Assembly: GCA_903813345.2 (NCBI GenBank)
Contig: CAIIXF020000007.1
Coordinates: 1,367,730-1,431,729, forward strand
Direction: 5' to 3'
DNA: 64,000 nucleotides
Source: Owenia fusiformis
Taxonomy: Eukaryota > Annelida > Polychaeta > Sabellida > Oweniidae
Shown here: positions 24,886-46,193 of the stretch, in pieces
How positions within the stretch are numbered: position 1 is the first letter of the stretch
Layout: every line of letters starts with the position of its first letter
Made by a program: the position numbers and the translations under genes
Notes under the pieces: generated by a model
The model's input: only the letters and a program-made list of their open reading frames with translations
Database searches by the model: none
What the model was told of the DNA's origin: nothing

Positions 24886-27440
24886 TTAGGAGGTCTTTCC
24901 TCTCTGCAGTTTGTAGAAGACATAGTAAAAGTCGTACATCATATCTGGGCCCACCCTGTGGAAGCTGATGGGCTCTTCACTACAACAGTCAAGACCCTGA
25001 AATGAAAATTATTGTTGTTTGATCAAAAGGACTACGCAGCTCTGTAGCCATAACATAATCAAAAATCAGTCGATACGCTGAGACGGCCACTCCGTCAGCT
25101 ACACAAAGAGAGTGAAGAAAAAATTGAAATATATCAGGGACAGGGGTAAGGAGCAGAATGAAATTAAATTGGACGTCAAATCGTTAATTGATTAAATATA
25201 TTTTAGCTACTGTAATAAATTAATTTATATATATAATATAATAAATCAGATTACACATTTGAAATGCAATAGAGCTATGTGGTTAATTCAACGATAAATA
25301 TTCATTGAGAGTGTGTGGACTGTAAAATCCTTGCAACGTGAACACCTCCTAATCCGGACACTTAAAGCGGCACCGATGGCGTTCGGATTTGGCAAGTGTT
25401 TCTATAATTTGTTGCTTCTCTACCATGTTATTTTCGAAGCATTACTTCAAAATTAACACGGCTAATACTTTCGAAATAATAAAAGTTGGGTAAGAATATA
25501 TATTTTTTCAAATAGAAGTACATTGTCGTCCCTTGGTTGACTACTTTTAAGTTTGATTGGCTCACAAAATATTTTAACTGGAAGTAGTGTATCAAGCATT
25601 CTTTACCAGTCGTGTTTTGCTGGGCTGATACAACTCGACAAATGGTTCGATTAGATGCTGCATATACCTATGTGGTGGGTACATTAGGAACCTGTCTCTC
25701 CCTAAACTATCACTACCATTCACTGGTCTACAGCCTGACTTCAGTAAACATGTAGATGCTTTCAGATCTTCATCTAGATTAGAAAATAAGGTAATTGTAA
25801 TATTCCCTACATTCATACACTTAAGAAAATGAGGTATTTAAAAAACATGTCTGGTATTGAGTGAAAATGGGTATCGTTTAGACATTCCATAAAATGGAAA
25901 GTTACTGCCATTCTTTATATTAGAAGTGTGAGCTAATATTCTATTAATAAAAGGATATGTATCGATATGGTGAACTGAATTCCACCAATTATTAAAAACA
26001 TTCTGTAAAAACACAGTCCTTTATGTAATGTTGACTGATTGACAACAATTTAATGCGAAAATTATTCATATATATTTCTATAACTGTTTTTGTTAACATT
26101 TTTCGTTTTTTAGTGCAATTGTTTTTTGTTCCTTTCTACCAATTCTTGAAAATGAAATAAAATGTCTTTCCGAACCTTGTTGGACAAAATAAAACACGAT
26201 AAAAACGTTATAGAATGATTTGAAGTGCAATACAGGTCCAGGATACATTTTGCTCTCGATATTCTGTATTGGCACTCGACTTCGTCTCGTTCCAACACGG
26301 AATTTCTAGAGCAGAATATATCCTGTATTGCACTTCAAATCATTCAATAACTTATAATATTATAATTTTTTATTATAACAAAGGGGTTAATCCCCCTGGC
26401 CAAAATACAAGATGGTTGGTTGTTGCCATTTTTAGATAAAAATATTTTAATTAGACCTCATTTTTGTTCAATCTATTCAGAGGGTGATGCAATATATTCA
26501 GGCGATTAGTCGTTGAAAATCTAATAAAGCTAATAAAAGAATATAGCCGAGAAACATGAATTAGGCCAATTTTAATTTCTACCGACTTACTCCAGCCTGA
26601 AGGGAAACAGTCGGGTTTAATTGTCTGCATTCCAATCTGGACAAGTCTTCGCAAAGCTTCCTTACTGACCACAATCCCACTTCCCCCAGACATAAACAAT
26701 TTATTCTTGTTTCCATTTTGATATAATATATGACCAAAAAACTCTGGCTGTGCGGGATCATGGTTCTCCAAAAATACTCTCAAGTTGTGAATCACAACAA
26801 ATGTATCCGAGTCCGCTTTGAGAAAGTAGTCCGCCTTGTTTAAAAAGTATTTGAAAACATACATCCAGGCAGCACGTGACTTTACAGCTAGTTTCCTTTT
26901 ACCCTCAGGAACGCCGAGTCCAATTGTTGGGAATGAAGCGTTCGTTACCGAGCTCATATATAGTGTGACGTCGCAATGCTTACCCCATGTGTTTCGGATG
27001 TGAACTGTTATCTCGGTTAAGTCTTTGGGACTTGTTAAAACCCAACATAATAGTTTGTATGATTTCCGAGGTAGGTCACGTGTCACATTTCTGCTTTTTC
27101 TCAGTGTTGTACCATTATATTGTCCCATTCTGATTCTTTTGGAACTTATTAACCGTCCACTTTTGCCAGTGTAATAAATAAGAACAATTATGCAACACAG
27201 AGAAAATAGGAATAACGCATAGAATAATTTTCGAGTATACGCGTGTGCCATCAATCCAAACATAGCTGTTAAAATAAGCTTGCATGTCACTGAACCATGT
27301 AAATGTTCCTCAATTATCAATTGTTGTGTGTTGCTGTTAACTTTGTTATTAGAGAAAAAAAAAGAACACAGCTGCTTCTGACAAACTGGTATCTTCAGAT
27401 CTTTACCAAACTGAATTAATATTTTCCATCCTTTATTCAT
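24886..27440 (-). CDS. C1GALT1-like beta-1,3-galactosyltransferase (GT31), type II Golgi membrane protein
   Basis: Three exons: 26591-27440, 25607-25773 and 24886-24996. Phases match (TGG A|AT, CTG|GGT). The longest start (27440) gives 375 aa. An internal Met at 27263 (316 aa; 27251 is also possible) is likelier, because it puts the hydrophobic anchor (LFYALFLFSLCCIIVLIYY) near the N-terminus as in core 1 synthases. Visible GT31 features: KLLCWVLTSP and NTWGKHCD; the metal-binding DSD in FLKADSDTFVV; FMSGGSGIVVSKEAL; EDLKASTC followed by DSLGRDRF; and a C-terminal CCSEEPISFH that matches the CCS..SFH block of C1GALT1. The reaction expected of the family is transfer of galactose to Ser/Thr-linked GalNAc in the Golgi. 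It is shorter than vertebrate C1GALT1 between exons 2 and 3, where the conserved YW(N)Y region is missing or in an exon I did not find. It may therefore be a divergent paralogue. Confidence 0.85.
26211..26347. repeat. Palindromic foldback element in galactosyltransferase intron
   Basis: The arms GAATGATTTGAAGTGCAATA and TATTGCACTTCAAATCATTC pair almost perfectly. Inner arms (CCAGGATA...TGCTCTCGA / CTAGAGCAGAATATATCC) extend the stem imperfectly. It lies in the intron between exons 1 and 2. No target duplication is obvious. Confidence 0.65.
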
Positions 27441-28883
27441 TTTGTTGGATTGTCAGTGCATCTAGTCACATCGGATCACCATGAATTGTATGTCATTGAA
27501 TAATCATTGAAAAATGTAGATATGTATAACTAACTGACTAATCAAATGATACTAGAATACAAACATAATGATATAAATAATCAACTACAACATTTTATTT
27601 CCATTGCTATATTACAGATAGTTATAATATTTTGTAAAATAAATTAATATTGTTTACCAGCAAACAATGTGTATCTGTCATGGATTAACAAAATCTATGT
27701 CAATTCAATAAATGATTCTTTTTAAGAAAACTAGACTGATGGCTGATATGCTGTAGGTAAAATAACCATGAAATCTGTTTAAGTTCTGTAATCATGAAGA
27801 ACCATGTGAATACATGTAAGAGTCGCAATTCTCCCAACTTAGTTCTTTCAATTCTAGTTGAAAGTCCATGGTTCTACACAGAATATTGTATAAATCATAT
27901 AACAATAAATAATATTCATAATTATATTGACCTTGACATGTGAATCAATGTAACATTCAAGTTCTTTATAGTATAGTATAGTAGTAAGTCTATAGAGAGT
28001 ATTAATAAAAATGCACCTTCTAAACTTGACATTTGACCTGCCAAGTAAACTTGACCAAAAACTCAATTACTGGCACATGTACTATTAAAGAGGCTATGAC
28101 TACAATGTACAATGTATGCAATTTGTCTCCTCGACGTTCAATCCCTTATTGCATTTAATGTTAACCCTTTATCCATATGAGCATGTTCAAAAACAACATG
28201 GCAACACTGTGGAGAGGATAACTACTGGCATAGAGTCTTCAAATCACAAACTAATGGATACAATTTTCAATGGAAGATTTCTATTCAAATGCAATTTTAA
28301 ACGCATAAACATACTTGTTCTAGATAAATCTCCAACTTTTCATTATTGTATCAACAAATTCAAATATTGATTTCCGTATATTATATACAACTTATTGTAT
28401 TGTATTGTGCATGTACAGTACTAAATACAGTATTCAATGTATGAAATTGTATTCTAATGTATTGTATTGTATTGCATCCAAATGTACAGTGTTATATTCA
28501 ATATATTGCATTGTATTCTAATGCATTGTACAATAATTCACCTGATAGAAACCACATGGAACTAAGGGAGCAGATCAAGAGTTCAATTTCAGATTCTTAA
28601 CTAAACTATTAAATGAGGGAAATGGAGTCTGAGCGGTCTTTTGAGTTGGGTGTAAAAACAAAACTGATTTTCCTTTCAACTATGACCACCCTCAACATTT
28701 CACTTCGTAACCATTACAAAAATCAATTACATCTCTTATTTTCTTAGATGTAATCTGCAAATTAAAAGGAAGTTGTATTATATTATCACCCCCTAAAACC
28801 CAATAATGTTTCAAGACTAATTAAAGGAGGTTTTCAGCCCTGAATAATATTTGACCTGTCACCTCACATTCCAAAAATCATAT
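27441..28883. other. Intergenic; TGTAT-rich simple repeat at ~28385-28530
   Basis: Contains the upstream flank of the galactosyltransferase gene and the 3' flank of the UBX-LRR gene. Around 28385-28530 is a degenerate TGTATTGTATTGCATTG simple repeat; a smaller patch of the same motif is at about 24860. No exon was recognised. Confidence 0.4.
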
Positions 28884-31800
28884 TCATTCAGAATCTGAAT
28901 CTTGACCTCTGGGTTGAAGATTTTTAACACTGACTCTAACAAGCTGTGGACACTCAGTGATGAGATGCTGGATGTTGCTCTTCACCCGAGTTCCATCCAG
29001 GTTGATCAGAGAGAGATGAGGCAGATGGATGTGCCTCACACCTACAACAATAAGCAAGCATTAGACACGGTTAGACAATTTAGCCTCAAAATGTATAACA
29101 TTTTACAAAATCTATTGTGATATTTTTATATTTTTTTGTAACTTTTTCTTACTATGCTAGCCTTTAATGCCAATGTCGTTAGGCAGCAATGGTATGAATG
29201 TTAAATTCTCAATAATGTTATCAAAAGAAGAAACAAATGGAATCCTTTTTTTATATTTAAAATTCTTTTTTATTTCAGATAATTCACAATGGAATCCTGG
29301 TGCAATTCAAAGGAAGATATTCCATAGTACCGTTTTCAATGGCATTGTCCATGGACATGATATCAAATATTAAAAGCAAGTTAAGTACATTAACATATTT
29401 TAATGTACACATATTCAGGGTTCTCCCTATTTTTTCAAAATGAGTGTTGGAAAAAGATCCATACCCAAAATTTGTGGGTGTGTACTGTTATTAGAACAGA
29501 GTGGTAAAATTCAAATATTTATGTAATATAAATAGTGTGGAGTCCCAAACTAAGTGAGTTGTAACACTTGCATCATCAGTGTGGTAGAATCATGATTCTA
29601 TGTGAACACTCCAGGTACTGTTAATCTTACCTCTGTTTGATACTGCAGTTCTACTGAGGTTAAGTTTGGAGAGTAACAGGCAGTTATTAAGAACACCATT
29701 GCATAGGAAGTCACTGCTCACTCTGAAAATTAAATAGAATAATTCTAAATAAGTTTGGAGAGTAACAGGCAGTTATTAAGAACACCATTGAATAAGAAGT
29801 CACTGCTCACTCTGAAAATTAAATAGAATAATTCTAAATATGTTTGGAGAGTAACAGGCAGTTATTAAGAACACCATTGCATAGCATAGGAAGTCACTGC
29901 TCACTCTGAAAATTAAATAGAATAATTCTAAATAAGTTTGAGAGTAACAGGCAGTTATTGAATACACCATTGCATAAGAAGTCACTGCTCACTCTGAAAA
30001 GTAAATAGAATAATTCTAAATAAGTTTGGAGAGTAACAGGCAGTTATTGAATACACCATTGCATAAGAAGTCACTGCTCACTCTGAAAAGTAAATAGAAT
30101 AATTCTAAATAAGTTTGGAGAGTAACAGGCAGTTATTGAATACACCATTGCATAAGAAGTCACTGCTCACTCTGAAAAGTAAATAGAATAATTCTAAATA
30201 AGTTTGGAGAGTAACAGGCAGTTATTGAATACACCATTGCATAAGAAGTCACTGCTCACTCTGAAAAGTAAATAGAATAATTCTAAATAAGTTTGGAGAG
30301 TAACAGGCAGTTATTAAGAACACCATCGCAAAGAAAGTTACTGCTCACTCTGTGGTAACGTTTTATATCATCAATGTTGAGAAAAGGTAGACCAATCACC
30401 AGAAGACCTAAATATTATTACTACCTTGATGAATCACAATAATCTATACATGCAAGACATTTATATGTTATGGTTGAATGAGACAAAACCTTCATGAAAT
30501 GTTTTATTTATTTGGTATTGATAATGTTCTATCTTTTAGCAGTCAGAACCAAACAAATGGGTCTGCCATTATTCTGATTTGTATACGAGCTATATCATCA
30601 ACAGATCAGCTGCAAAAGTTTAAAGTGGTGAGATAAAGAGCAAAACTGAATCAAACTGAAAACTGAATCAAACAATTTGAATATGTCCCAGCCAATCCAT
30701 GATTTAACACTGTGTGGCTGTACAACACTTACCCAGTTTCCGACATGCTTAACTCTTGAAGCTGTGTCAATCCTGGAAAACAGAAATGAAACAATGTTTC
30801 AATTTTCTTCAAATGCATTCAGCTATATTAGTAACTGATTCGATGCTTCTATCATAAATAGGTTTTAGGGGCAATATAGGATTCTACCTTGCAATAAAGT
30901 TTTTAACCCTCATTTTAGTCTAATTTTCGAATGTAGATTTTTGATGTCACTTTCACTTAATTTTGGATATTTATTTATGAAAATCACGATTACTTTTCCC
31001 CACATCTACATGCACTGGACATTACATGTATAGCAGTCTATTGAAAGGATGCATATGTTTACTCAATACCTTGTATTATGGTGGCCCCGGCATCAGTGAT
31101 GGCTGTTCTGTCAAGGGAGAGCACAGTAAGGTTTGTCAGACCTGTAAAATACACATGACAGTATATGTACATGCAAATCACAGTCCAAATGTTTAAGAGC
31201 ACAATTACTCAAGGCAAAAAACAAAATGTGTTAAAACACAGCTAAGAAAGGAAGAAAAAACAAACTCCAACTTTCTAAACAGTCTAACAATGCAAAAAGG
31301 GTTAAATGACCCCCCCCCCCACACACACACACTTCTCCACCATAAGATAAAATATATTTCTGAATCTGGTCCCAAATACAGAATATTCAAAACTAATTCT
31401 TATTCAACATAATATGAAATATGAAGTTTTGAAATATGTGTACATGTACAAGGAAATGTATATAGGTTATTTCATGCTTGATTTTCAATATGAATTTTAT
31501 TCCAGGGTAATATGATATTGACCGAGGGAAATATGATATTGACCAAACGAGCGTAGCGAGTGAGCGTCAATATAATATTTACCGAGGTAAATTATCAAGT
31601 AAAAAAATGTAAAATGTAAAAAATGTTTGAGGTGGTCATTAAGATCATGGGGATCTATCTCCTCGATCGGTCTGAGTTCATTCCTCTCACTCCGTAAAAA
31701 ATCTACTAGGATTTTTATGTCACTTTTAGTTTTCTTCGAAGTATTGATATTTTCTTGACCTTTAATGAAGTCATCAACATCCTCTGTTGCATACCTAGAC

Positions 31801-34800
31801 ATATTTGTCACAGTAATAGACCTTTGTCACAGTAATAGACGTAAACTAGATGATAATAATTTCAATAATTTCAATTTTCCAAACGATTTTTTTACTTCCT
31901 GTAGAGATGTGCTAGACGAAAAGCGTAAAACTCAAGAGAAATTACCGGGAATATTTCTGATACGGGATCTGATACGGGATTTTTGCTGATACGGGATCCA
32001 ATACGGGATCTGATACGGGATTTTGGCTGATACGGGATCTGATACGGGATTTTTCAAATAACACTTTTATTCCCTGTTATTTTCCCAGGGAAAACATGTT
32101 ATTATGGAATAAACATATATATTCTACAGTATATGCAAGCTCTAATTAAAACTGCTACACTCACCAGCTAGCATGAGTAGTCCTTCATCAGTGATCTTGG
32201 TATTCCCAAGAAGAAGCTTTTTTAAACTGAAACAAATCAAATAAATGCATTCTCTCAAAAACGGTAAAAATATCAGCATTTTTTGGGAAATCTGAACACA
32301 ATATCAGCATTTTTTCAAACACTGTACAGATTCAGCATTTTCTCGGATATTGTGCACAATATCATATCAACACTGAGAATGCAAATCACCCACTTACATA
32401 ATGAAAGTATTCCTAGATTTTTTCTAATGGAAAAATGAATTAGGAATTCAAAATGCCTTACTAAGAGTTTCATCCAAAATACTTCTTACCTGTGTATCTG
32501 TCCAACATATTGCATACTAGAGCTGGTAACATTGATGTAGTTTGTGAGATCTAAAGACTGTAAAGGCATATCTAAAATAACAATAAAACAATAATGCATA
32601 AAATATAGAATTTTTTGAGGTACTAGTATAGGAATATAATTATAGGTCTACTTTACCATCAGAGTATACACATGGTTCAATAGAGCTATCTTGGCTACAG
32701 ACATAGTCAGATGTATTAAGTACAAGATGGCATCATTCTCATTTTGTCCCATGCATAGAATCAGATTTGACAATTTGGCATGTTATTTTGTAATAGAACT
32801 GATTGTGTTAGCTTGGCACATTGTATTACTAATAGAATCAGTTGTGGTAGTTTAGCATATTAAACTGCATATAACCAATTTCAATAGTTAGTTTGACATA
32901 TTGTACTGCAAAGAGAGCCAGTTTGGCATATTGTACTGCAAAGAGAGCCAGTTTTGCATATTGTACTGCAAAGAGAGCCAGTTTTGCATATTGTACTGCA
33001 AAGAGAGCCAGTTTGGCATATTGTACTGCAAAGAGAGCCAGTTTGGCATATTGTTTGATATAATTTGTTGACTTCAATGTTTTTCTCTACTCTCATGTTG
33101 CCCTTTGTATAATTCTGTTTACCTTTAAGGTGAGATATCCCAGTGTCTGTAGTGGAGAGCCTGCTAGGAAGTCCAAGAGATTGGAGTTTAACACCTAAAA
33201 AAGATTCATTTCAAGTTTCAATTTACCAAAGGAGGTATGATTTCCCATTCTTATGCTTATACAATATCAATACAAGGCACATTTGTCAAAGGGGTCATAA
33301 ACACATAATCGAGCAACAAGCTTAGCCGCAATTAAATGGAGGTTAAGAGATTCTTACCTGAAATATACTGCAATGCTAGGTCACCTGTGACATTCTCAGT
33401 GTTAGGGATATTGAGGGAGATAAGTTTGGAACATCCTAGTAGACACATCAGAGACTCTGTTACTATTGCAGTCCCAGATATGTTCAAACCTTCCAGACTT
33501 TCTAATTTATCAATACCGGTCAGACTACACACCTGAAAAGATTTTTATAGAAATCGAAATACAGGAATTTTCAAAGTAACAAATAATTTGCAGAACCTTT
33601 TCATTAGTGATTCCTTTTCTACAGAAAACATTTGGTCATTAAGGAGTGTTCCATATACGCATGTAACATATTGATATCAGATCTAACATTACACACACAA
33701 ATCAGAAAATACAAATTGCAAAAATTGTACAACGCAGATAAAGTAAACTGAATGGCTTACTTTAGTTTGTTCCAGGTTTAGTGTTCTTAGTCTTGGCAAA
33801 TCTGAAATAAACAAAAACATAACAATATCATAAATTAAAAGAACATATTCTTAGCGATGAGAATGATGAGTAATAAAAGGATAAAATGGATCAGACCAGG
33901 TCAGGTTAATTTGGATCAGAAGTTCAAATTCTCCTAGAAGGGAATTAGGCCAGGGAAACAAACAAAATAGTTACCATGGTGCAAGCTTAGGAAAGCATTT
34001 TAAAATTGCAAGTGAGAGATCATCTTAAGCTGAACATATATAACAGCCCTCTTTGTTACACCAGGTGTGAGAAATTTCACAAAAATATATTTTAAAGATA
34101 TTAATCTGTTACACATATTCTCACCTGCCAAATACTGCAAAGACTTATGTGTTACAGGAGTCCTACAGAGGTTAAGGTGTTGCAGATTTTCTGGTTTAGT
34201 TTGGCAGTATTCCTGGATTCCCTGGTCATTGACATGTGTCTCTTCCAGGACCAGAGTGACTAGACTAGGGTAATCTGGAAATATTATTTTGTAAAATGCT
34301 GCAAACATAATGGGCAGGGTCAAACATCAAAATAACATGTAGTATCATTTCAAATTCTTATGTGGTCAGAGCCTCTAGAAAGTGAATGCTGTATACGTAA
34401 CCAAAGATAAAATCCTCTCAGTTGAACTTTATAGATTCTATGAATATTTTACTTAAAAGAAAGGTGCTTTTAGTAAATGGAATCCTTACTTGCAATAACA
34501 GGAAGACAATTGTTGGTGAGGTTATTACAGGATCCAAGGTTCAATACTTTCAATCTCTTTAATGCTGAAAAACAAAAACATACATAGACTAATAACAATT
34601 CAAAATAAAATGACATGATATCAAAAAATAGCCCAAGTTGCAATTTCAACACTGTATTCTGCATTAACAGAGCATGAATTTGTTTCCACGTGAAGGAATG
34701 AAAACGAAATTGCAGAAGAAATGTAGTAACCAAATTATAATCTGAAAATAATGAATTTATATATCCAATTGTCCAGTATCAGATTTTGAATTGTACAAAA

Positions 34801-37800
34801 AAATCAATATTCATTTGACCGATGCATATCCAGGGTGGGCCAAAAAAAACGCCACTTTTTTTTCAAAATGCTATAACTTTTTTAATTTTTGATATTAAAT
34901 CATAATTTGCATACCAAATAAAACTTGAGGTTGTTATCTAGCCATCAATCATAAATTATCCACTTTTACTTTAATAAAATATGTCACCAGCGTCTCACTT
35001 AAACATGTGGTGTTCCGTGAGAAATAGGCATAATTTGCAAAATGTTCCTGAACTGATACGGCCTGATGATCACCAAGATAATAGCCCTGATGCGAACACC
35101 AGTGAGTATAGGGTATGGGAAGGTCTCCAGGAGATTTTATGAAGGCATCCAATCAAGAAAATTGCTCAACTGAAGCTGGCAATCAAGACAGGTTGAAAAA
35201 ACTTAGCTAACATTTCATTGATACTGCGATATCAGCAAGGCGAAAAATATATCATAAATTAGGGTGGCGGACCAATTGAACTCCCCTTTTAGATCAAATA
35301 TAATCCAAGTTGAAGGACCTGTAACATTGTATTATTACTAAGAACCCTTGGCACTATATAACTGCAAAATTTGGGGTATGCAGGTTGGAAAATAAAAAAG
35401 TTGTAGTGTCTTGAAAAAAAAGTGGTGGTTTTTTTTGGCCCACCCTGTACATGTAGGACCAAGACCATGCATGGTTTTACTGCCTTTTTATTGGTCAAAG
35501 GTGACAATACGATGGAATTATGTACCTGCTAGTGGCTGAAGGCCCCTATCTGTTATGAGCGGACAGAAGCACATACTCAGATGCTGCAGATTCTTATGGA
35601 GGCTGAAATGAAGCAACAGAGTTGATTAATAACACTTCATTTTTAATGACGATGCATGGAGGACACTTGTAGAATTGAGTTAGCACAGAAGTTCATTCAG
35701 GTTGTAATCTAAGCTACTTGTTCGTTAGGTGGATAGTGAACTTACCTAATGGCAGCTATTAATTCATTGGTTGTGTAGGGATAGCAGTCTAGTATTAACT
35801 TCTGTAAGTGGCTGGAAAAACACATGTAGAACTTATGTCACATTTATCTGAACAGGATGAAAAAAATTCAGGTGAAAACAGAGGCACGGTTTTGCACACC
35901 TGATTTTATTTTTATAAGTTAATAAGTAAATAAGATATGAATGTGAAAGTATGTGCAAAAACATACAAATGCTTGTCAGCTTCAACAATGAGAAATGGCT
36001 TACAATGATGAAAACAATCTTACCATGTAACAAATGGATGTAACGTTTTTGGACGTAAAATTTTTTCCTTGATGAGATGCTCAAGAATCCTAGTGGCGAC
36101 ATCTGATGGTAGACCACTGAGTGTTGTGAGTGGATTCCTGCCGTCACAAATCCTAGTGGACACTTGCTTAATGATCATGTTGGTCAAACTTGTAACATTG
36201 TACGTCAGGGTGAGATGAGGGGAAATAGGCTGGCTTGAGGGACCTGCATAACGACGCCTGGCAGCTTCAGCTAAAATGTAATCAACAGTACAAGTAAATA
36301 GTTTCTATTGGGATGCTGAGCAGGTTATGATCTACAACAATTCAATGTAATTTAACCAAAATTCCTTTTGATGAGTTTGTTAAATTCTGACATTGAGAAA
36401 CATGTATTTTTAGAATTTATACCTGCAAGTTGTTGGGCTGGTAAGTCAAGTTGTGAATTATGGTTTTCTGGGACAAGTCGATTACCCTCTCCCCAATCCT
36501 GGCCTTGGTGTCCTCCTCCCATATCTCCTAATCCCCCACCCATTCCTCCTAACCCCCCTCCCATTCCTCCTAACCCCCCTCCCATTCCTCCTAATCCTCC
36601 TCCCATTCCTCCTAATCCTCCTCCCATTCCTCCTAATCCCCCTCCCATTCCTCCTAACCCCCCTCCCATTCCTCCTAATCCCCCTCCCATTCCTCCACCT
36701 CCAAATCCAGGGGGCATGTTTCCACCTCCAACTTCATCATCTCCACTATCATCTGCCATTTCTACATCTATAAATAACAAATATGGTATATTTAAATAAA
36801 ACAGTTTGACAAGAGGAAAGAAATTGGTGCAAAATGAATAAAGTAAAAATGTAGATTGAAACTGAAAAGATTCTGCTTGATACCTTGTCATAACAAACAA
36901 ATCATCTTAAATGTGTCTGACGGTTTCATAATACTTTGACCTATTTTGGAAGGAACATTTTGTTTATACCTTGATCAGGTGGTGGTGCTACACCCTCTTC
37001 TACCTCTAGCTGGTTACCAGCACCCCAGGAATGCCCTTGTGTAGGTGGAGACACCTGGTTATGGCCCAGAGGAACTGCATTATTCAAAGGCGGGTCTGCA
37101 TCTACTGCTGCTGCTGAATCTTGAGTTTCAGTATTTTGTTGTTTTGGACTATCAGCTGGAACAACTAGAAACAAGTGTAACAGTCTCAGTTACTGATTCT
37201 ATAATATGGTATATGTAGTACATATAAAATCACATTTAAAACTGTTAAAATTAAAATCTAAAATCTCCCAAAATGAAAAAATTGGTTCACTATTTGATCA
37301 TTTGAAAGAAAACAGAATCTCATTAAGAAACATTGCCATCTAAATCTTTTGACATACCAACATTTAACTTCTAAGAATTAACACTGAATAGGTTATGAAC
37401 ATGCAAATGAGAAAAAATGAATTCACAGTGGACTAACTTTTCTTTGGAGGTGACGAGTCTGCTTTCTTGACAACGAGAGAGCCACTAGGGGTCAACCCAA
37501 GGTCACGTAGTGTCTCACACATATGTATCTCACCATATTCCTGCCTTGGGAATGGCTACAATTTCAAATAAGATAATCAACATACAATTGTTCATTAGAA
37601 TATCAAGCATATAAAATAAACAACATTCAATTGTTCATTAGTATATCAAACATAAAATAAACAACATACAATTGTTCATTAGTATATCAAGCATAAGATA
37701 AACAACATTCAATTGTTCATTAGAATATCAAGCATAAGATAAACAACATTCAATTGTTCATTAGAATATCAAGCATAAGATAAACAACATTCAATTGTTC

Positions 37801-40800
37801 ATTAGAATATCAAGCATATGAGTAACCTTGTTATTTAATAGATTGTCATCATTGACCATCCTCCAAACGCAGGGGTCCAGATATCATCCACTCTGTTCCA
37901 GTAGATGATGTCGGCCCCTGCATTTAGAGGAAGTCACCAGATTGCTATTATATAAGTACATGTAAATATATACTATGGGTAAATTGAATTTTCAGGGATG
38001 TGAAAAATAGAGAGTCGCCAGTACATGATTTTGATAAGACCTTAGATAGACATTAGGCAAAAGTTATCAAATCTATGCTTTTTATTTGTCTTATATTTTC
38101 AATTTGGATTTGACCAAGCGGTCTGGGAATTAGCCCACCAAGCTAGGCAAAGGCATTGTAGCCTAGAGGTCATTGGTCCGAGTCATGTGAGCTCCTGTAT
38201 TCACTAATTTACAGAAATAAACATTGCACACATACCTGTATTAGACACAAATCATCCACATTGTCTAACTTTCCCTTGACAAAGTTCCACACCTCTGACA
38301 GGAGTGTGTCTGCTGTAAAGTTATGCCTCAAAGCTTGGCCAGTAGGTAGACGGATCTAAAAATGCATACCTTGTACATGTTCAGCATATGTCAAACAAAT
38401 CTTGCATCATCATCCCCCCTCACCCCATTACATGCCTCAACCAGGGTTCACGGCTAAGGTTGAATACATGACTGCCCAATTTATTATATTGGCATTCAGT
38501 TCATTGCCCAACATGTAACTCATTTTCGTCTATTGCCTTGAGTGAAAAGTAATTGCCATTGGCATTCAGGTAGCTGTGAGTTTGCCAATCCTGACTTCAT
38601 CTAGAACTAGTTACAGAGGCCATAGAGACCTGTTGCAAGGCAACAAGCCAAGTGGATTTTAAACCTAATAATTAATTTTTCCTACAATACATATAATATG
38701 AGAAAAATACACCTAGACCCAAGTGCAAGTATATAATGAAACAGAATGACATCAAATAACTCTGGGTCAACGTATACATGGTACTAAATGGGTATAAACC
38801 CTTTTGTTTTCCTACCTGTAAGATACACTTTTCAGACTTGACATCTTTGTTATTTTCTTTAGAAGTTAGCTCCGCTGCTGCAGTGTTGGGTGGCTCCGCT
38901 GGTGCTGTGTGGCTAGCTGTTGTTTCATGTTTTATGCTGGTTCGCATTTTTCTTCTCTCCCGATCTTCTTCTATTTGTTTCAGGGCTTCTGCCTTAGCCT
39001 TTGACAGACAAAATAAGTAAGTTAGACATTTTTCATTGAAGGTATAGTGCATATATATCTTCAATTAACCTCTGGACTATCAATTGGCAACAAACTTAAC
39101 AGATGCACATTTTTAGTGAAAATTCTTACAAAACATATTTCAACTTTTATATTAACACTTAAATTCCAAAAACTGATTTAGACAACTGACTATACCCTGT
39201 ATCAAAAATCTACCATTAAATAACCTCTATATATCTTCATTTAGCAAAACAAAATATGACTTAACACATGCATATTTTTAATGAAAAACTCTTACAAAAC
39301 TTATCTTACTTTTATATTTACTATTAAATTCCAAAAACTGATTTAGACAGCTGACTTTACCTTCTTTTCTAATTTCTTATTTTCTATTGCACTTTTCCTT
39401 GCTTCTTCTCGTTCTTTAGCATGGAATCTTTCCTTGATCTGTCTTTGTTTGTCATTCATTGACATTCTGCTGGTCACCCTGTCTTCCTCAGGCCCCGGGG
39501 GAGGCGTGGGAGAACCTTGGGAGGTCACAGGGGCAGAGGAGGGTAAGTTTAGTGGCTGAGGGTTTGCAAATGGATTGGCTCCAACATCTTCACCTCGTTG
39601 TTCCTGCAACATGTACAATCATGTGACAAACATAGAGCTATGAAAATAAATAAAATGTTTATCGTACATGTCCATCATACATTGATCATTTTTGATCTTG
39701 TAATATAAAATTGATCAAAAATAGTGAAATCTAGAATAAGAAAAAATTAAAAATATGAAAAATTAAAAATCAATTCAGATATGCATAAAACCAAAAATAT
39801 ATTGAGAGTATTTCAATCAAAGTAAGTGCCTAAAATAAACATTTCGGTGTATAGAGCAAACCACAATAATTCAAACAAAACATTTTACCTTTCTCAAGGT
39901 GAGAGAGGCTTGAGCTAACCCTGGTTTGCCTTGAAGAATCCTGGAATAAATCAAACATACAAATGTAATAAATAGTACTTAAATATGTATTACTGTTCTG
40001 TAATGATTGCATGTTCATTTTGAGAGGTGTTTGAATTATAGATATAAGAGGTTTTACTTTACTTAATTTGAGATTTTAATTCTAAAACATTTCTTTATGT
40101 CTGCCTCTTATGGATAGTTTTTGAAATATCGAATTTTCCTGGCAATTTTTGAACTGATAGATCTAATGTAAAAACTTCCTTGGAATATGTATTTCAAAAG
40201 CAAGTTTAATTAATTTTGGGAAGTATTTGTAATAGCTCATTTAAAACATTGGAAACTCTCTAACAATGAGTTGTTGCACATGTATACAAGAAATCCAGGT
40301 ACCTGGTGTACCTGGTGTACTTACCATTCTATAGCTTCTTCTACAGAAAGTTTCCCAGCTTGGACAGCCTGTTGTGAATCTTCTAAGCCAAATCCCATAC
40401 TCACTAGGCACATGACAAGGTCATCCACACTCTGTAACAAATAAATTCACCATATAGAGTATATTAGTCTCAGTCTAAATTGAACACATGTTTCACTTAA
40501 ACCGGTCATCAAAAAATTATGAAAAAATTACACATCGTCAATTTAATGGTCATATTTTGAATGGTAACAATTTAATTTGAAAAATGACAATTAAATTGAC
40601 AATGTGTAACTTTTTATATACAGGTATTATAGAATGAGATGAAAGCGTTCAAACTGGTGAGGGGAACAGTGATACCTGTGTACTAAATCTTCTGGAGGAA
40701 GGATGATTCCTATATTATCCAGATCCTTTTATGTGTTGAGTCTTACTAAGTAGGAAAAAGGGGGGACATGGTCTATCAATCTAAGGGTTGTAGTAAGGAA

Positions 40801-43800
40801 CTTGAAGATGTTTGTCAATTTCAACCTTGAAGTGGTTGACATTGTCAGCATCTATTGCAGACTGGGAGATTGTTCCAGTATTTTACAATTCTTCTTCTTC
40901 AGTTCTTCCAAATACATTTTTTCTTACATTTAGTCAACTGTACGTATCTTGTGTTCAGGTTCTGGTATTCCATCAAGTATTCCTGCTGGTCATTTCCGTA
41001 TCCTTTATGCATCACTTTGCATTTATAGTACTTAAATAGTAGTTGCCATTCATTTGACCATTTACACATGCTGTCTTGATCATTTTGTAGTATTATTTTG
41101 CGTCATCAGCATATATGAGAAATTTGTTCTTGGTTGTTTCAGTAAAGTTGTTAATGAAGGCAGCAGACAGGGTCGGTCAAAGGCAAGTTTCCTGAGGGAT
41201 ACCAGATGTTACATGGGAGCACTCGACTCGCTCTGATACTCAACCGTTTACCGAAACTCTCATGACGATGGTTACAGACATGAGAAGCCCATGTTATAGA
41301 CTGTGGACTACTCTGATAATTGCAACTTCCATTTTTCATGGAAGGTCACACATTCCAACATATTTCAAACAGTCTGTATGATTATGCTAGGCACTTTCTG
41401 GGTAGTTGGACTTCATGTAGGGGTGGCAGACGGCCCTCAGGCCAATTCATACCCCCACCCTAAGAAAACCTTGGGGGTACTTTAATACCACCTGATAAAA
41501 AGAATACTAATGCATGTCATATATTCATAGTTTTGTAGTAGGCAGAGCATACCATGGTTAGTCAGTGCCAGAAATGTCCAATCTCTGACTTATATGGTTA
41601 CCATGGAAACAGTATTTATATCTCAAAATCTTCTCAATTTGACCTCCTCCAAAATATGTCCCTTAGCCCTCAAAGTGAAATATTTGCAAGTTTGTTTGGA
41701 TTTTGTGGCTGCAACTTTGTCAAAAGTTGTATAAATATGTATATATTCACACTAAAGCACTAAAAAGTTGATATAATGCTCCAATAAATCAATAATATCT
41801 ATCAAATATAGTCACACACAACTACTTTTAGGGAAAAGTGGGCGTGGCACTTTTTGGAACTTGTGTAATTGTTGCAGCATTAAGCAAAAAATACATATTA
41901 CACTAACAATAATTGACATTTAATTATCATTTACTAACATTGTGTAACATTGTAATATGTTCATTATCATTATTAGATACTTAAATTATTTTATGTAAGT
42001 GTTATCATGAACTTTTCTTTTATCCCTATACCATACAAGGTGGGCATCACCAATGGTGTCAAACTAACTTTTCTGTTTAACTTATTTTTTACCATAGACA
42101 AGGGAAAAAGCTTTACTTGAAGTCGTGACCTCATTAGGTGCTATGTATATGGATAGATGGATTGATACTAGTCGGTAGATGGCAGCACTTGTGCTAGTTG
42201 GGCTAGATACAAGTATTTACCATTGACTTGACATGTGTCACTTAGTCTATTGATTTACCATATTCGTTCTGTTGGATTAAAGTGAAACTGCATTTGCAAT
42301 GAATTTGATGATGTTCAGATTGTGTTTGAAACTTGATGATAATCAGAAGTGTTTGAAACTGGATGTTGTTCAGATTGTGTACACATGAACTTTAATAGGA
42401 CCACTGAAACAATAAGTCAATGTTTAAGATTCTTTAAAATTATCTCAATGAGAATTTAGCCTGTTAACCTATAATTAAACTACGCTTCAGCAAGATTTCG
42501 AAGCTATATAACAAATCTCATAATTTGCAACTTTTTCATTATTTGATAATTTAACCCATTATTCTTTATTGCTGATTTAAATATTGCAAGGAATTCAAAT
42601 GACCTAGGGAAGCCAGTGATATGAATTGGCCTTATTCATTGAGTTACATTAAAATGGAAAATTGTGAAGAAAAAGAGAACTGTTCCACGGCTTCACAGGA
42701 AATATGGAAGCAAAGTCAACAAGGGATGTGGGAACTAGGCTGTTAACATATAGAGATTTAGAACTCTCCAGGGAAGTGTCTCTATTTGGTATAAAATACA
42801 CAGGTCTATTCATGCACACCATTTTAAATATGAATCAAAATTAGTGATATCCATGTTTCTGGTGAAAGCATTAATTGAAAGAGACAAACATCCTACCCCA
42901 ATGGTATAAAATATAAGGAAGTTTGAAGCAGTAAAAAGGTATTACCATTTTAGATTTGATTGAACAAATTGAATCACAGGCAATTTTTAAATTTCGATAT
43001 ATTAAAAGAGGCTCTCTTGGTTAGATGGGAGAATTAGCTGCATGTTAAAGGTGCCGCTTTGTTCAGTTTATAACAAAATTGATATTAAGCCCGAAACAGT
43101 ACGAAATGTTAAGCAAATATTTCATTCTATGGAGGGCAATACCTGTTCATCTTTCAATGATTTTTGCAATATGTATTGCCCGCAGCCCATAGGGCGATGG
43201 TAATACATGTTGCAAAAATCATTGAAAGTGCAGTTGTCAGAATCCCCAGGCGGGCAATACGCTGGACAATACGTCTTTTAAATATGGAAATAATTCAGTG
43301 AGCTGTGAAATACGCTGGTATTTTTAGTCACATGGTTCTGAATTAGCCAATCAAATCACACCATTTATAGCAATTATGCAATAATTAGTGCTACTTCCAT
43401 GAACACCCGTTTTGTAGAATAAGATTCTGATTCTCGTATTTGGTATATATATGAATTAGACAAAGGCAAATCCAGTCGAACATCTTGTTGAGCATCAAAC
43501 AAAGGTACAAGCTATATATCATTTCTCAAAATGGCCACTTTACTGAAGAAATTGTCAAAAGATTATATGTATCATGTTTTAATGTATTTACGTTTAAATA
43601 TAGCTGTCTTAATAAGTACACATGATGAAAATACAGGCACAAACAAAATGCATACTTTCTGAAACCCTGCGTTTGGATATTGTTAAATTGAATGATATTG
43701 GCTAAAAACTTCTGTCAGAATTGAAACAATATTTCACCAAGAAAAGTCAACATTTCAAAACAACAGCAATAGCTAGAACTATCCTATTTAGATGTTTACT

Positions 43801-46108
43801 TGACAGTATGGAAAATTGGGGAAGCCTGACAGAGAATCATAACAGATAGAGGTAGAAAGATTTGATAAAGAAAATGGAGTTTTGGTGTGGGAGGGGGGGG
43901 GGGGCGTGTAATTGTATACTTGTTTATAAAATTGATAAAATGACATATTCTAGACAAGGATAGGCATTTGCCATAATAAACTATGAGGGATAATGACTCA
44001 TAAACTTACACAATGGAGATTTGGGGTAGTAATATGGAACATACGTTATATGGAAACTGTAACCTTATAAGATCTTGTCCAGTATTTCAGTCATACCTGA
44101 TTATAAAGGACCATTGATGTTACAGCATCAGGGCATATTACATATAATATTTAATCATGACCATCATTTCTACTGTGCCAAAATCATTCAACCAATTTTA
44201 AAATGGAATACGAGAACAAGTTTTCTTATTTTAGGTTATATATTCATATGTCTAATAATATTTGATATTAAACATATTAACTTTTATTGTTTTTATACAC
44301 TAAACAGATTTGTTTAGATATTATTTTAAGTTTTAACATAACAAACCACTTTCCAGGTCGAAGGAATCACTAAAGGTACAGCATTTCAGAAATGTTTAAA
44401 TTGTTTATATTTCATTATTTTGTGAAATACTAAAAGGAGTTTAACCCGTACCTTGTTGACCATGAGTCAATGAATGCATTATGTAATATCTGCAAAATGA
44501 TGCACTATGCAATTCATACATGGAATAATTTATTTTGCCATATTGGAATCAAGTATTTTCGTTAATCCATTGGATAGATCATGCATTACCTGATGTTGAT
44601 AATAGAATCAGTAAGTCAATTGTAAGACACCATTTATCCGAGAAAATCTTAGTTATGTATTAAAGCAGGGCATAACATTTCACATATCGTTTATTCATGT
44701 TTACTACATCTATGGTTCCAATGTCATTTAAGCCTGATTTGGTGCAAATGTCAAAGCATAACATCAACTCTAAAGTAGTTTAATTCAATGAAAATTAAAA
44801 ATATCAAAATCGACAATTACTGTCCGCCATCTTAGATGCGAAGGTTACAGCCGTTACCTTCACTTGGTACTGATCAGTGTCGGTCCATTACTTTTCAATT
44901 GCATAAAATGGCTCTAACCCTGACAAATGTATTAATCAATTTTAACTCATAGCTCTTCTTGATCAATGAAACTATTTATATTCTAGCTTCAAGTCAATGA
45001 ATACGACTTTGACAAGCTAAAAAGACTAAGGACCTCTAGGACTTAAAAGTTAATTTGACCATTAATGACCTATGATAGGGAAGGGTCATGATAACACTTA
45101 TATAAAATATTTAAAGTATCTAATAATGATAATGAACATACTACAATGTTACACAATGTTAGTAGATGCTAATTAAATGTCAATTGTTGTTAGTGTAATA
45201 AGTATTTTTCATTTAATGCTGCAACAATTACACAAGTACCAAAAAGTGCCACGCCCACTTTTCCCTAAAAGCAGTTGTGTGTGACTACATTTGATAAATA
45301 TTATTAATTTATGAGATCATTATATCAAGTTTTTAGTGCTTTAGTGTGAATACATACATATTAATTCAACTTTTGACAAAGTTGCAGCCACAAAATCCAA
45401 ACAGATTTGCAAATATTTCACTTTGAGAACTTAAGGACACATTTGGGACGGGGTCAAATTGAGAAGATTGTGAGATATAAATACTGTTTCCATGGTAACC
45501 ATATAAGTCAGAGATTGGAAATTTCTGGCACTGACTAACCATGGCATGCCCTACCCACTATAAAACGATGAATATCTGATATGCATTAGTATTATTTTTA
45601 TTGGGTGGTATTAAAGTACCCCCAAGGTTTTGTTGGGGTAGGGGTATAAATTGGCCTGAGGGCCTTCTGCCACCCCTACATAAAGTCCAACTACCCAGAA
45701 AGTGTCTATTATAATCATACAAATTGTTTGAAATATGTTGGAATGTGTGACCTTCCATGAAAAGCGAGATCCATTTCTAGAGCACTTCTACAGAATAGTC
45801 CGCAGTCTATTACTGATAACTGAGATCACAAGCACCAAGTATGGAGCTTTTGACGTTTTGCTGGAAATGGTCGGATGACCTAATATTTAAAATCCAGTAG
45901 ACTCTAGTGTTAGATATTCAAAAAATGGCAGATTTATTTTCAAAATATCGGAAAATTAGCACAACAAGCAAGAACTACAGAGAGAAAAATGTCACCAGCA
46001 AAGTAAGCAAACCAATACTTCACACTATACTCATTCATTCTTAATATAGCTTTGACCCTTTAAATTGTATCAAATTATGGGAAAACTTACTTGAACTGCG
46101 CTTGCCAT
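28884..46108 (-). CDS. UBA-coiled coil-UBX-leucine-rich repeat protein (putative ubiquitin/p97 adaptor)
   Basis: 23 exons: 46091-46108, 40325-40431, 39889-39940, 39361-39603, 38816-38998, 38236-38355, 37438-37555, 36970-37164, 36423-36767, 36024-36270, 35746-35811, 35526-35602, 34490-34564, 34125-34274, 33761-33801, 33358-33532, 33123-33194, 32490-32571, 32165-32226, 31070-31141, 30733-30772, 29631-29722, 28884-29041. Every junction keeps phase, giving 2790 nt (929 aa). Residues ~7-50 are a UBA domain (MGF loop at 18-20). Residues ~100-160 are a charged coiled coil. Residues ~198-278 are a UBX domain with the p97-binding FPR loop (PFPR at 242-245). Residues 281-345 are Pro/Gln-rich. Residues ~364-430 are (LGGMGGG)n repeats. 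Residues 461-542 contain LPSDVATRILEHLIKEKIL, resembling the segment before the LRRs of ZYG11-type cullin-2 adaptors. From ~543 onward are LRRs of the L..L.L.....(I/V)TD.GL..LA type. The first 280 residues look UBXN1-like. I do not recognise a named protein with this whole order. The role as a p97/ubiquitin ligase adaptor is inference. Confidence 0.85.
29662..30352. repeat. Tandem duplication of a 3' splice site plus exon start, 8 copies
   Basis: Units of about 89 bp start at 29662, 29751, 29840, 29934, 30022, 30111, 30200 and 30289. On the gene's minus strand each unit holds a polypyrimidine stretch, a TTTTCAG acceptor and the first ~50 nt of exon 22 (encoding VSSDFLC.GV..NCLLLSKL). Only the copy at the gene-distal end (exon 29631-29722) continues into the rest of the exon. 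Seven copies keep TTTTCAG; the eighth has a degenerate CCACAG. In most duplicated copies the exon part runs into an in-frame TAG (TTATTTAG). The copy at 29840-29933 carries a 5-bp insertion. Confidence 0.92.
31508..31600. repeat. Short foldback in intron 19
   Basis: ATTGACC...GAGCGTAGCGAGTGAGCG...ACCGAGGTAA. Outer pieces TTACCTCGGT / ACCGAGG and ATATGATATTGAC / GTCAATATAATAT are in inverse orientation. It is similar in style to the GATATCAA foldback near 53.4 kb. Confidence 0.5.
31955..32056 (+). repeat. GATACGGGATCT short tandem repeat
   Basis: Seven occurrences of (T/A)ATACGGGAT within ~100 bp, alternating with GATTTTT(G/C) spacers. It lies in intron 19 of the UBX-LRR gene. Confidence 0.75.
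32890..33053 (+). repeat. 30-bp minisatellite in UBX-LRR intron 17
   Basis: Five to six copies of a 30-bp unit containing TTTGGCATATTGTACTGCAA and AGAGAGCCAG. Because 30 is a multiple of three, minus-strand frames stay open and give a ten-residue repeat (YAKLALFAVQ). This is an artefact within the intron between exons at 33123 and 32571. Confidence 0.85.
34829..35447. mobile_element. Tc1/mariner-type TIR element relic in intron 12
   Basis: The ends are CAGGGTGGGCCAAAAAAAAC and its near-perfect complement GGTTTTTTTTGGCCCACCCT, with TA on both sides (34827-34828 and 35448-35449). Length is about 619 bp. The inside keeps short open pieces on the minus strand (for example 34949-35152) but no intact DDE transposase, so it is a deleted or non-autonomous copy. 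Confidence 0.7.
36518..36697 (-). repeat. Coding 21-bp minisatellite: (LGGMGGG)n in UBX-LRR exon 9
   Basis: About eight to nine units of 21 bp within exon 36423-36767, each encoding LGGMGGG. Third-position changes (CCC/CCT, AAC/AAT on the plus strand) separate the units, while the amino acids are almost unchanged apart from the last unit (LGDMGGG). The plus strand is also open here and reads a proline-rich frame, which I treat as a shadow. Confidence 0.9.
37568..37822 (+). repeat. ~45-bp minisatellite in UBX-LRR intron 6
   Basis: About five to six copies of a unit containing CAATTGTTCATTAGAATATC and AAGCATAAGATAAACAACAT. It lies directly upstream of the acceptor of exon 37438-37555, on the intron side. 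Confidence 0.85.
38105..38200 (+). repeat. tRNA-like sequence, possible SINE head
   Basis: TTGACCAAGCGGTCTGGG resembles the A-box of a Leu/Ser-type tRNA. GGTCCGAGTC about 75 bp downstream resembles a B-box (GGTTCGAATC). There is an imperfect extra arm between them but no clean acceptor stem, so a tRNA-derived SINE remnant is likelier than a functional tRNA. Confidence 0.35.
39075..39360. repeat. Duplicated segment at the exon 4 donor
   Basis: Intron sequence ending AAATTCCAAAAACTGATTTA followed by GACA.CTGACT occurs at about 39160-39195 and again at about 39325-39358, where it abuts the real donor of exon 39361-39603. The duplicated tract is roughly 165 bp and about 80 per cent alike by eye. 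Confidence 0.6.
41294..45812. mobile_element. 4.5-kb inverted-repeat structure in UBX-LRR intron 1
   Basis: The left arm, about 41294-42030, and the right arm, about 45073-45812, are inverse copies of each other over roughly 740 bp with scattered differences. Shared landmarks include GGGTAGTTGGACTT, AGGGGTGGCAGA, GGTTACCATGGAAACAGTAT and AAAGTGGGCGTGGCACTTTT, or their complements. The 3-kb interior (42031-45072) has no open frame above about 80 codons but contains a small foldback at 43110-43270. It could be a TIR transposon with long termini that has lost its gene, or a large inverted duplication. No target duplication was found. Confidence 0.8.
43110..43270. repeat. Foldback MITE, family A copy 1
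   Basis: Arms TTTCAATGATTTTTGCAA and TTGCAAAAATCATTGAAA flank a GCCCATAGGGC centre; the outer parts carry GCAAATATTTCATTC and GGGCAATAC. Related to elements at 48025-48198 and 53835-53996. Confidence 0.65.
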
Positions 46109-46193
46109 TTTTTGTTTTTGTTTTTCATTTACTTCCGTTTTACTGCGCCTCCTAACGAGTAGGAAACAATTTTACTTCCGGTAACCGGTTGCA
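46109..46193. promoter_or_regulatory. 85-bp divergent promoter between UBX-LRR and ACP2-like genes
   Basis: The two start codons (minus-strand ATG at 46108-46106, plus-strand ATG at 46194) are separated by only 85 bp, so both 5' UTRs and the core promoter must lie here or overlap the genes. Two ETS-type sites occur: ACTTCCG at 46131 and ACTTCCGG at 46174-46181. A perfect Grainyhead-like palindrome AACCGGTT is at 46183-46190. No TATA box is seen. ETS sites are common in animal bidirectional housekeeping promoters; binding here is inference. Confidence 0.6.

Follow-up and report, generated by a model that had tools for sequence, protein, structure and literature searches.

Descriptions of p97 cofactors usually portray individual proteins whose contacts with ligases and clients are transient. 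UBXN1, UBXN7, FAF1 and FAF2 have an N-terminal UBA domain and a UBX domain with an FPR loop, linked by a charged helical stretch. UBX proteins bind p97; in the presence of FAF1, FAF2 or UBXN7 the ubiquitin threshold of p97-UFD1-NPL4 is lower, and the coiled coil directly preceding the UBX domain is required in FAF1 and FAF2 (PMC9377798, in excerpt). In replisome disassembly, CUL2-LRR1 together with UBXN7 or FAF1 supplies a leucine-rich-repeat (LRR) ligase receptor, ubiquitin binding and UBX docking on p97. Cul2-Lrr1 and p97 are bridged by UBXN7 via separate domains, a precedent for the arrangement discussed here (PMC9358472, in excerpt). In replisome disassembly the parts are spread over separate proteins, whereas a gene of the annelid Owenia fusiformis appears to bring the same functional parts together in one chain. 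Like the four cofactors named above, its predicted product has a UBA domain, a charged helical stretch and a UBX domain in that order; unlike them, it carries an LRR region of ~360 residues after the UBX domain, and no UAS/thioredoxin-like domain is listed among the 13 Pfam families found for the full protein at E up to 10.

The window, meaning the whole 64-kb stretch of DNA that was analysed, contains the gene on its minus strand, to which all features of the gene given below belong. From the exon 1 ATG to the stop codon the gene occupies 28884..46108, and in an independent rebuild running from 46108 to 28884 its 23 exons spliced in phase into 930 codons including the stop, equivalent to 929 amino acids. 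The preliminary description had proposed this same 23-exon, 929-codon in-phase join, and it held, as the frame is unbroken and 22 of 22 introns follow GT...AG. The start codon is supplied by exon 1 (46091..46108), an 18-nt exon separated from exon 2 by a 5,659-bp intron and the least certain of the model. Exon 1 and the long intron 1 are, along with the acceptors of exons 5 (1.5 bits) and 8 (0.7 bits) and the donors of exons 7 (3.7 bits) and 20 (3.5 bits) in the splice-site scoring of the gene, the weakest parts of the model. Upstream of the ATG lies a possible core promoter (46131..46181), in which two exact matches to [AC]CGGAAGT, an ETS-type motif, stand at 46181 and 46138, 73 and 30 bases from the ATG; these were noticed post hoc and are the only two found when both strands of the window were scanned. 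Intron 1 also houses a 683-nt inverted repeat (91%), the arms of which (41333-42015 and 45081-45763) are separated by 3,065 nt and which is possibly a fold-back or MITE-type element. Downstream of the gene, a long open frame at 26451-27452, also on the minus strand, reads by eye like a C1GALT1-type beta-1,3-galactosyltransferase.

The UBA domain, with its MGF loop, spans approximately residues 7-45 and is encoded by exons 2-3 (39889..40431), on evidence from Pfam, an AF2 model of exon 2 and Foldseek. The earlier assignment of this domain is supported: UBA (PF00627) scored 23.4 bits, above its cut-off of 22.4, when residues 1-64 were scanned separately, but 18.1 bits, below the cut-off, in the full-length scan. 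UBA_7 reached 21.5 bits with the whole protein and 26.9 bits with residues 1-64, both under its cut-off of 27. Exon 2 by itself was modelled by AF2 with a pLDDT of 92.4, and Foldseek ranked a RuvA domain first and the UBA domain of USP5 second (E 2.1) against this model; as both E-values exceed 1, this comparison lends weak support to a UBA fold. Exons 4-5 (38816..39603) encode the charged helical, coiled-coil-like stretch that precedes the UBX domain, recognised from its sequence and from a weak alignment to the coiled-coil/UBX region of FAF1.

The UBX domain itself, residues 194-271, is spread over exons 5-7 (37466..38839, coordinates derived by hand from the exons) and scored 50.4 bits against a Pfam cut-off of 21. 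Its FPR loop reads PFPRQEY and aligns to that motif in UBX domain-containing protein 4 and in FAF1, the same two proteins that came out best in a PDB sequence search with the N-terminal half. With the UBX domain alone, the best PDB match was 2kxj (UBX domain-containing protein 4), followed by FAF1. The PFPR-bearing UBX domain of the preliminary description is thereby confirmed, as are its Gly/Met repeats, which a tandem-repeat search traced to a 21-bp array of 8.9 copies in exon 9 (36511..36696) encoding a 7-residue Gly/Met/Leu repeat. Membership of the UBX family and the presence of an FPR loop support the putative role as a p97 cofactor that had been proposed. A second tandem array, of 41 bp and 6.1 copies, is located in intron 6 (window 37568-37818).

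The genome of the same organism, searched over 498 Mb in 525 contigs, yielded no second copy of the gene with either half. All five matches to the N-terminal half were the gene's own exons, and the 41 matches to the LRR half at E up to 1 comprised its own exons and their repeats together with weak LRR matches, the strongest of those elsewhere having an E-value of 1e-4. The UBX profile PF00789 gave 13 matches, spread over 12 places; 11 exceeded the cut-off and none lay within the UBA-UBX-LRR gene, probably because the UBX domain of this gene is split between exons. By reading of their translations, the way in which the same-genome ZYG11 and ZER1 genes discussed below were also named, the 12 places were assigned to UBXN1, FAF (two), UBXN7 (two), UBXN4, UBXN6, p47, UBXN10/UBXN11-like (two), ASPSCR1-like and OTU1-like genes. 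Two near-identical UBXN7-like UBX exons lie ~20 kb apart on the same contig, which suggests a recent tandem duplication. Six of the 12 UBX domains were compared with the one described here by a pairwise test expressed as a Z; UBXN4 was the closest (25 identities in 76 aligned columns, Z 23.5), and the remainder gave Z 2.7-10.8. UBXN4 is nonetheless a separate gene in the same genome, to which the gene here adds a UBA domain and the LRRs. With its UBX domain nearest to that of UBXN4, the gene looks, on sequence similarity, like an additional UBX family rather than UBXN1 with a tail. A UBXN1 orthologue that had gained LRRs was rejected on the same ground and because a separate UBXN1-like UBX exon is present elsewhere. 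Viral contigs were scanned twice for relatives and gave none, which fits a gene of animal origin, and an NCBIfam search returned no useful match.

The C-terminal part of the protein, residues ~570-929 (exons 12-23, 28884..35602), is composed of ~15 LRRs, identified from Pfam, PDB matches and strand motifs. LRR_4 and LRR_8 scored 45.1 and 34.4 bits, both above the cut-off of 27, and LRR_Zer-1 scored 14.4 bits, short of its own cut-off of 27. Between residues 570 and 911, strand motifs are spaced 22-26 residues apart, and counting overlapping rows gives the figure of ~15, which replaces the approximately 12 repeats first proposed. In the PDB, this half is most similar to a GALA protein (E 4.4e-10), FBXL2 and FBXL17 (up to E 2.2e-8), with ZYG11B far behind at E 0.0044-0.0056. 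Although GALA and FBXL-type F-box/LRR proteins are thus the best solved LRR relatives, residues 462-564, which include the segment before the repeats, matched no F-box family in Pfam at E up to 10. An F-box in that segment was rejected on this result, along with a Z of 1.0 against one provisional F-box stretch. ARM repeats are the degron-binding part of ZYG11B; among the 13 Pfam families listed for the full protein there is no ARM family, and its C-terminal end consists of LRRs. An 89-bp tandem array of 7.7 copies (window 29661-30352) reaches across the end of intron 21 and into the beginning of exon 22. This array contains eight copies of CAG|AGTGAGCAGT. The frame read from the last of them, at 29722, stays open into the real exon 22; the seven upstream copies all run into a stop, and so constitute seven decoy acceptors ahead of the real one.

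Because the two halves each have their own separate relatives, the model could in principle be two adjacent genes, UBA-UBX and LRR, joined in error. The boundary between the UBX and LRR halves falls at intron 9 (36271..36422), which at 152 bp is the second shortest of the 22, contains neither AATAAA nor ATTAAA, and has good splice sites, with a donor of 8.6 bits and an acceptor of 7.5 bits under a leave-one-out matrix from the same gene. Within the open frame of exon 10 there is no in-frame ATG upstream of NMIIKQ, which itself sits within a predicted helix, and the only [AC]CGGAAGT sites of the window are those at exon 1. Taken together, these features of the sequence make a single gene much more likely, and an erroneous join was rejected, as very improbable, on the short intron 9, its lack of either polyadenylation-type hexamer and the missing ATG. 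The single chain with UBA, UBX and LRR regions that had been proposed is accordingly supported by the in-phase model, the Pfam matches and the features of intron 9.

A further question is what the pre-LRR helical segment of exon 10 (36024..36270) contributes, since motif, profile and AF2 analyses mark it as a candidate VHL-box-like element, with a BC-like SLTNMIIKQV at residue 488 and, 26 residues downstream at 514, the Cul2-box pattern LPSDVATRI. In ZYG11B, the VHL box, a BC box helix followed by a cullin box, sits before the LRRs (PMC13201589, in excerpt). ZYG11B and ZER1 share with the protein here a helical pre-LRR segment with a Cul2-box pattern and then LRRs, but the protein here has no listed ARM repeats, a non-canonical BC box and a UBA-UBX N-terminus, and the ZYG11, ZER1 and AMN1 relatives of this genome reside at other loci. 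The common order suggests that the protein may also be a cullin-2 (Elongin B/C) substrate receptor, in which a diverged VHL box in exon 10 would bind Elongin C and CUL2, the LRR would bind the substrate and the same chain would hand the ubiquitylated substrate to p97, which is the less likely reading. The BC box consensus, (S,T,P)Lxxx(C,S,A)xxx-hydrophobic (PMC4878042, in excerpt), tells against it, as SLTNMIIKQV has Ile at the sixth place where C, S or A is required, and the two strict matches in the protein, at 76 and 818, both lie outside the pre-LRR segment. Moreover, in 20,000 shuffles of the segment the Cul2-box pattern arose in 42% and the relaxed motif pair in 4.7%, so the motifs alone prove little. 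Pairwise comparison with human ZYG11B (this sequence and that of human AMN1 being provisional) gave the segment a Smith-Waterman Z of 6.5, or 4.9-7.4 over four settings, and its score of 51 was above the maximum of 46 reached by 621 other open frames. ZYG11B was the only one of five comparators to which the segment was clearly similar, with Z 0.3 against the same-genome ZYG11, -0.4 against ZER1, 2.7 against AMN1 and 0.7 against human AMN1, and the value for ZYG11B dropped to 2.3 (BLOSUM62) or 3.7 (BLOSUM45) once the residues upstream of LTLTYNV were removed. The same-genome comparators were themselves identified against these provisional human sequences, ZYG11 by Z 20.6 and ZER1 by Z 5.3 to ZYG11B, and AMN1 by 45% identity to AMN1. 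Between them, ZYG11 and ZER1 reached only Z 2.1-2.9, so that the pairwise test has little power, and ZYG11B was absent from a PDB search with the N-terminus of the same-genome ZER1 at E up to 10; for these two reasons, a VHL box going undetected at the sequence level is weak evidence. The pre-LRR segment of the same-genome AMN1 aligned with ZYG11 at Z 4.5-5.4 and with ZER1 at 0.4, a hint of a BC/Cul2-box-like N-terminus common to AMN1 and ZYG11.

Profile comparison gave an intermediate result. Against a five-sequence profile (same-genome AMN1, ZYG11 and ZER1, and human AMN1 and ZYG11B), hhalign scored the segment at 19.3, with a probability of 5% and an E-value of 0.0074. None of 100 shuffles attained this score (maximum 16.9) and a same-genome F-box/LRR stretch reached 9.95, but left-out members of the profile scored 23.6-42.6, and the aligned part is the Cul2-box side, with the BC helix outside it. 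Single-sequence AF2 of exon 10 predicted three helices, which would fit a VHL box, at low confidence (mean pLDDT 60.3), and Foldseek with this model returned 34 matches at E up to 10, none of them at E up to 0.001. The LRR half is similarly divided, with some similarity to ZYG11B in the PDB and better matches to GALA, FBXL2 and FBXL17. On whether the exon 10 segment is a VHL box, these comparisons lean tentatively towards a distant relative. For the ZYG11/ZER1-like cullin-2 receptor of the preliminary description stand the Cul2-box pattern and the likeness to ZYG11B; against it stand the departure from the strict BC box, the lack of an ARM family among those listed and an LRR_Zer-1 match below cut-off, and the profile score falls between shuffles and members. 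It is doubtful that the protein is a self-contained tag-and-unfold receptor, which would engage Elongin-CUL2 via the diverged VHL box and a client via the LRR, and would deliver the ubiquitylated client to p97 via its own UBA and UBX domains. Alternatively, the segment might do no more than cap the LRR at its N-terminal end, and the LRR might serve for localisation or as a scaffold, by which a p97 adaptor is sent to one cellular site, not to one client. Human UBXN4 is anchored at the ER, and the nearness of the UBX domain to the gene read as UBXN4, closest of the six compared, counts for such a role, as does a Pfam scan of the segment by itself, which gave no family at E up to 10. The intermediate profile score to VHL-box proteins and the UBA domain, which suggests client binding, count against it, and we consider it unlikely.

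We regard the protein as probably a p97/VCP adaptor of the UBA-UBX type with an LRR domain fused behind the UBX. The order of its domains is given by the gene model and the family matches, and from these we infer every binding step. The UBX domain would dock its FPR loop onto the N-domain of p97, and the UBA domain would hold ubiquitin chains on the client. The C-terminal LRR arc may then provide specificity by binding either one specific client or the ligase by which that client is marked, with a putatively flexible acidic, Gly/Met-rich linker between the UBX end and the LRR end. As a result, p97-UFD1-NPL4 would be brought to one set of ubiquitylated proteins. This scheme is drawn by analogy with FAF1, FAF2 and UBXN7 and with the bridging of Cul2-Lrr1. 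A point against an adaptor is UBXN1, also a UBA-UBX protein, which had no significant effect in the p97 assay (PMC9377798, in excerpt).

The combination of UBA-UBX and a long LRR module in one chain was not found described in the open-access PMC text that was searched. Phrase searches for a UBX-LRR protein matched a single paper, in a reference-list string on CUL-2LRR and UBXN-3 (PMC6773462), and wider searches gave no UBX-LRR fusion in titles or the starts of abstracts. Orthologues may be present, unnamed, in public proteomes. A natural UBA-UBX/LRR fusion would reveal the client-specific step that has become hard-wired in evolution, and a single protein would allow the hand-off from ligase to p97 to be tested by single-domain deletions. 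If the tag-and-unfold receptor were true, a single protein would perform the tasks that CUL2-LRR1 and UBXN7 carry out as separate proteins.
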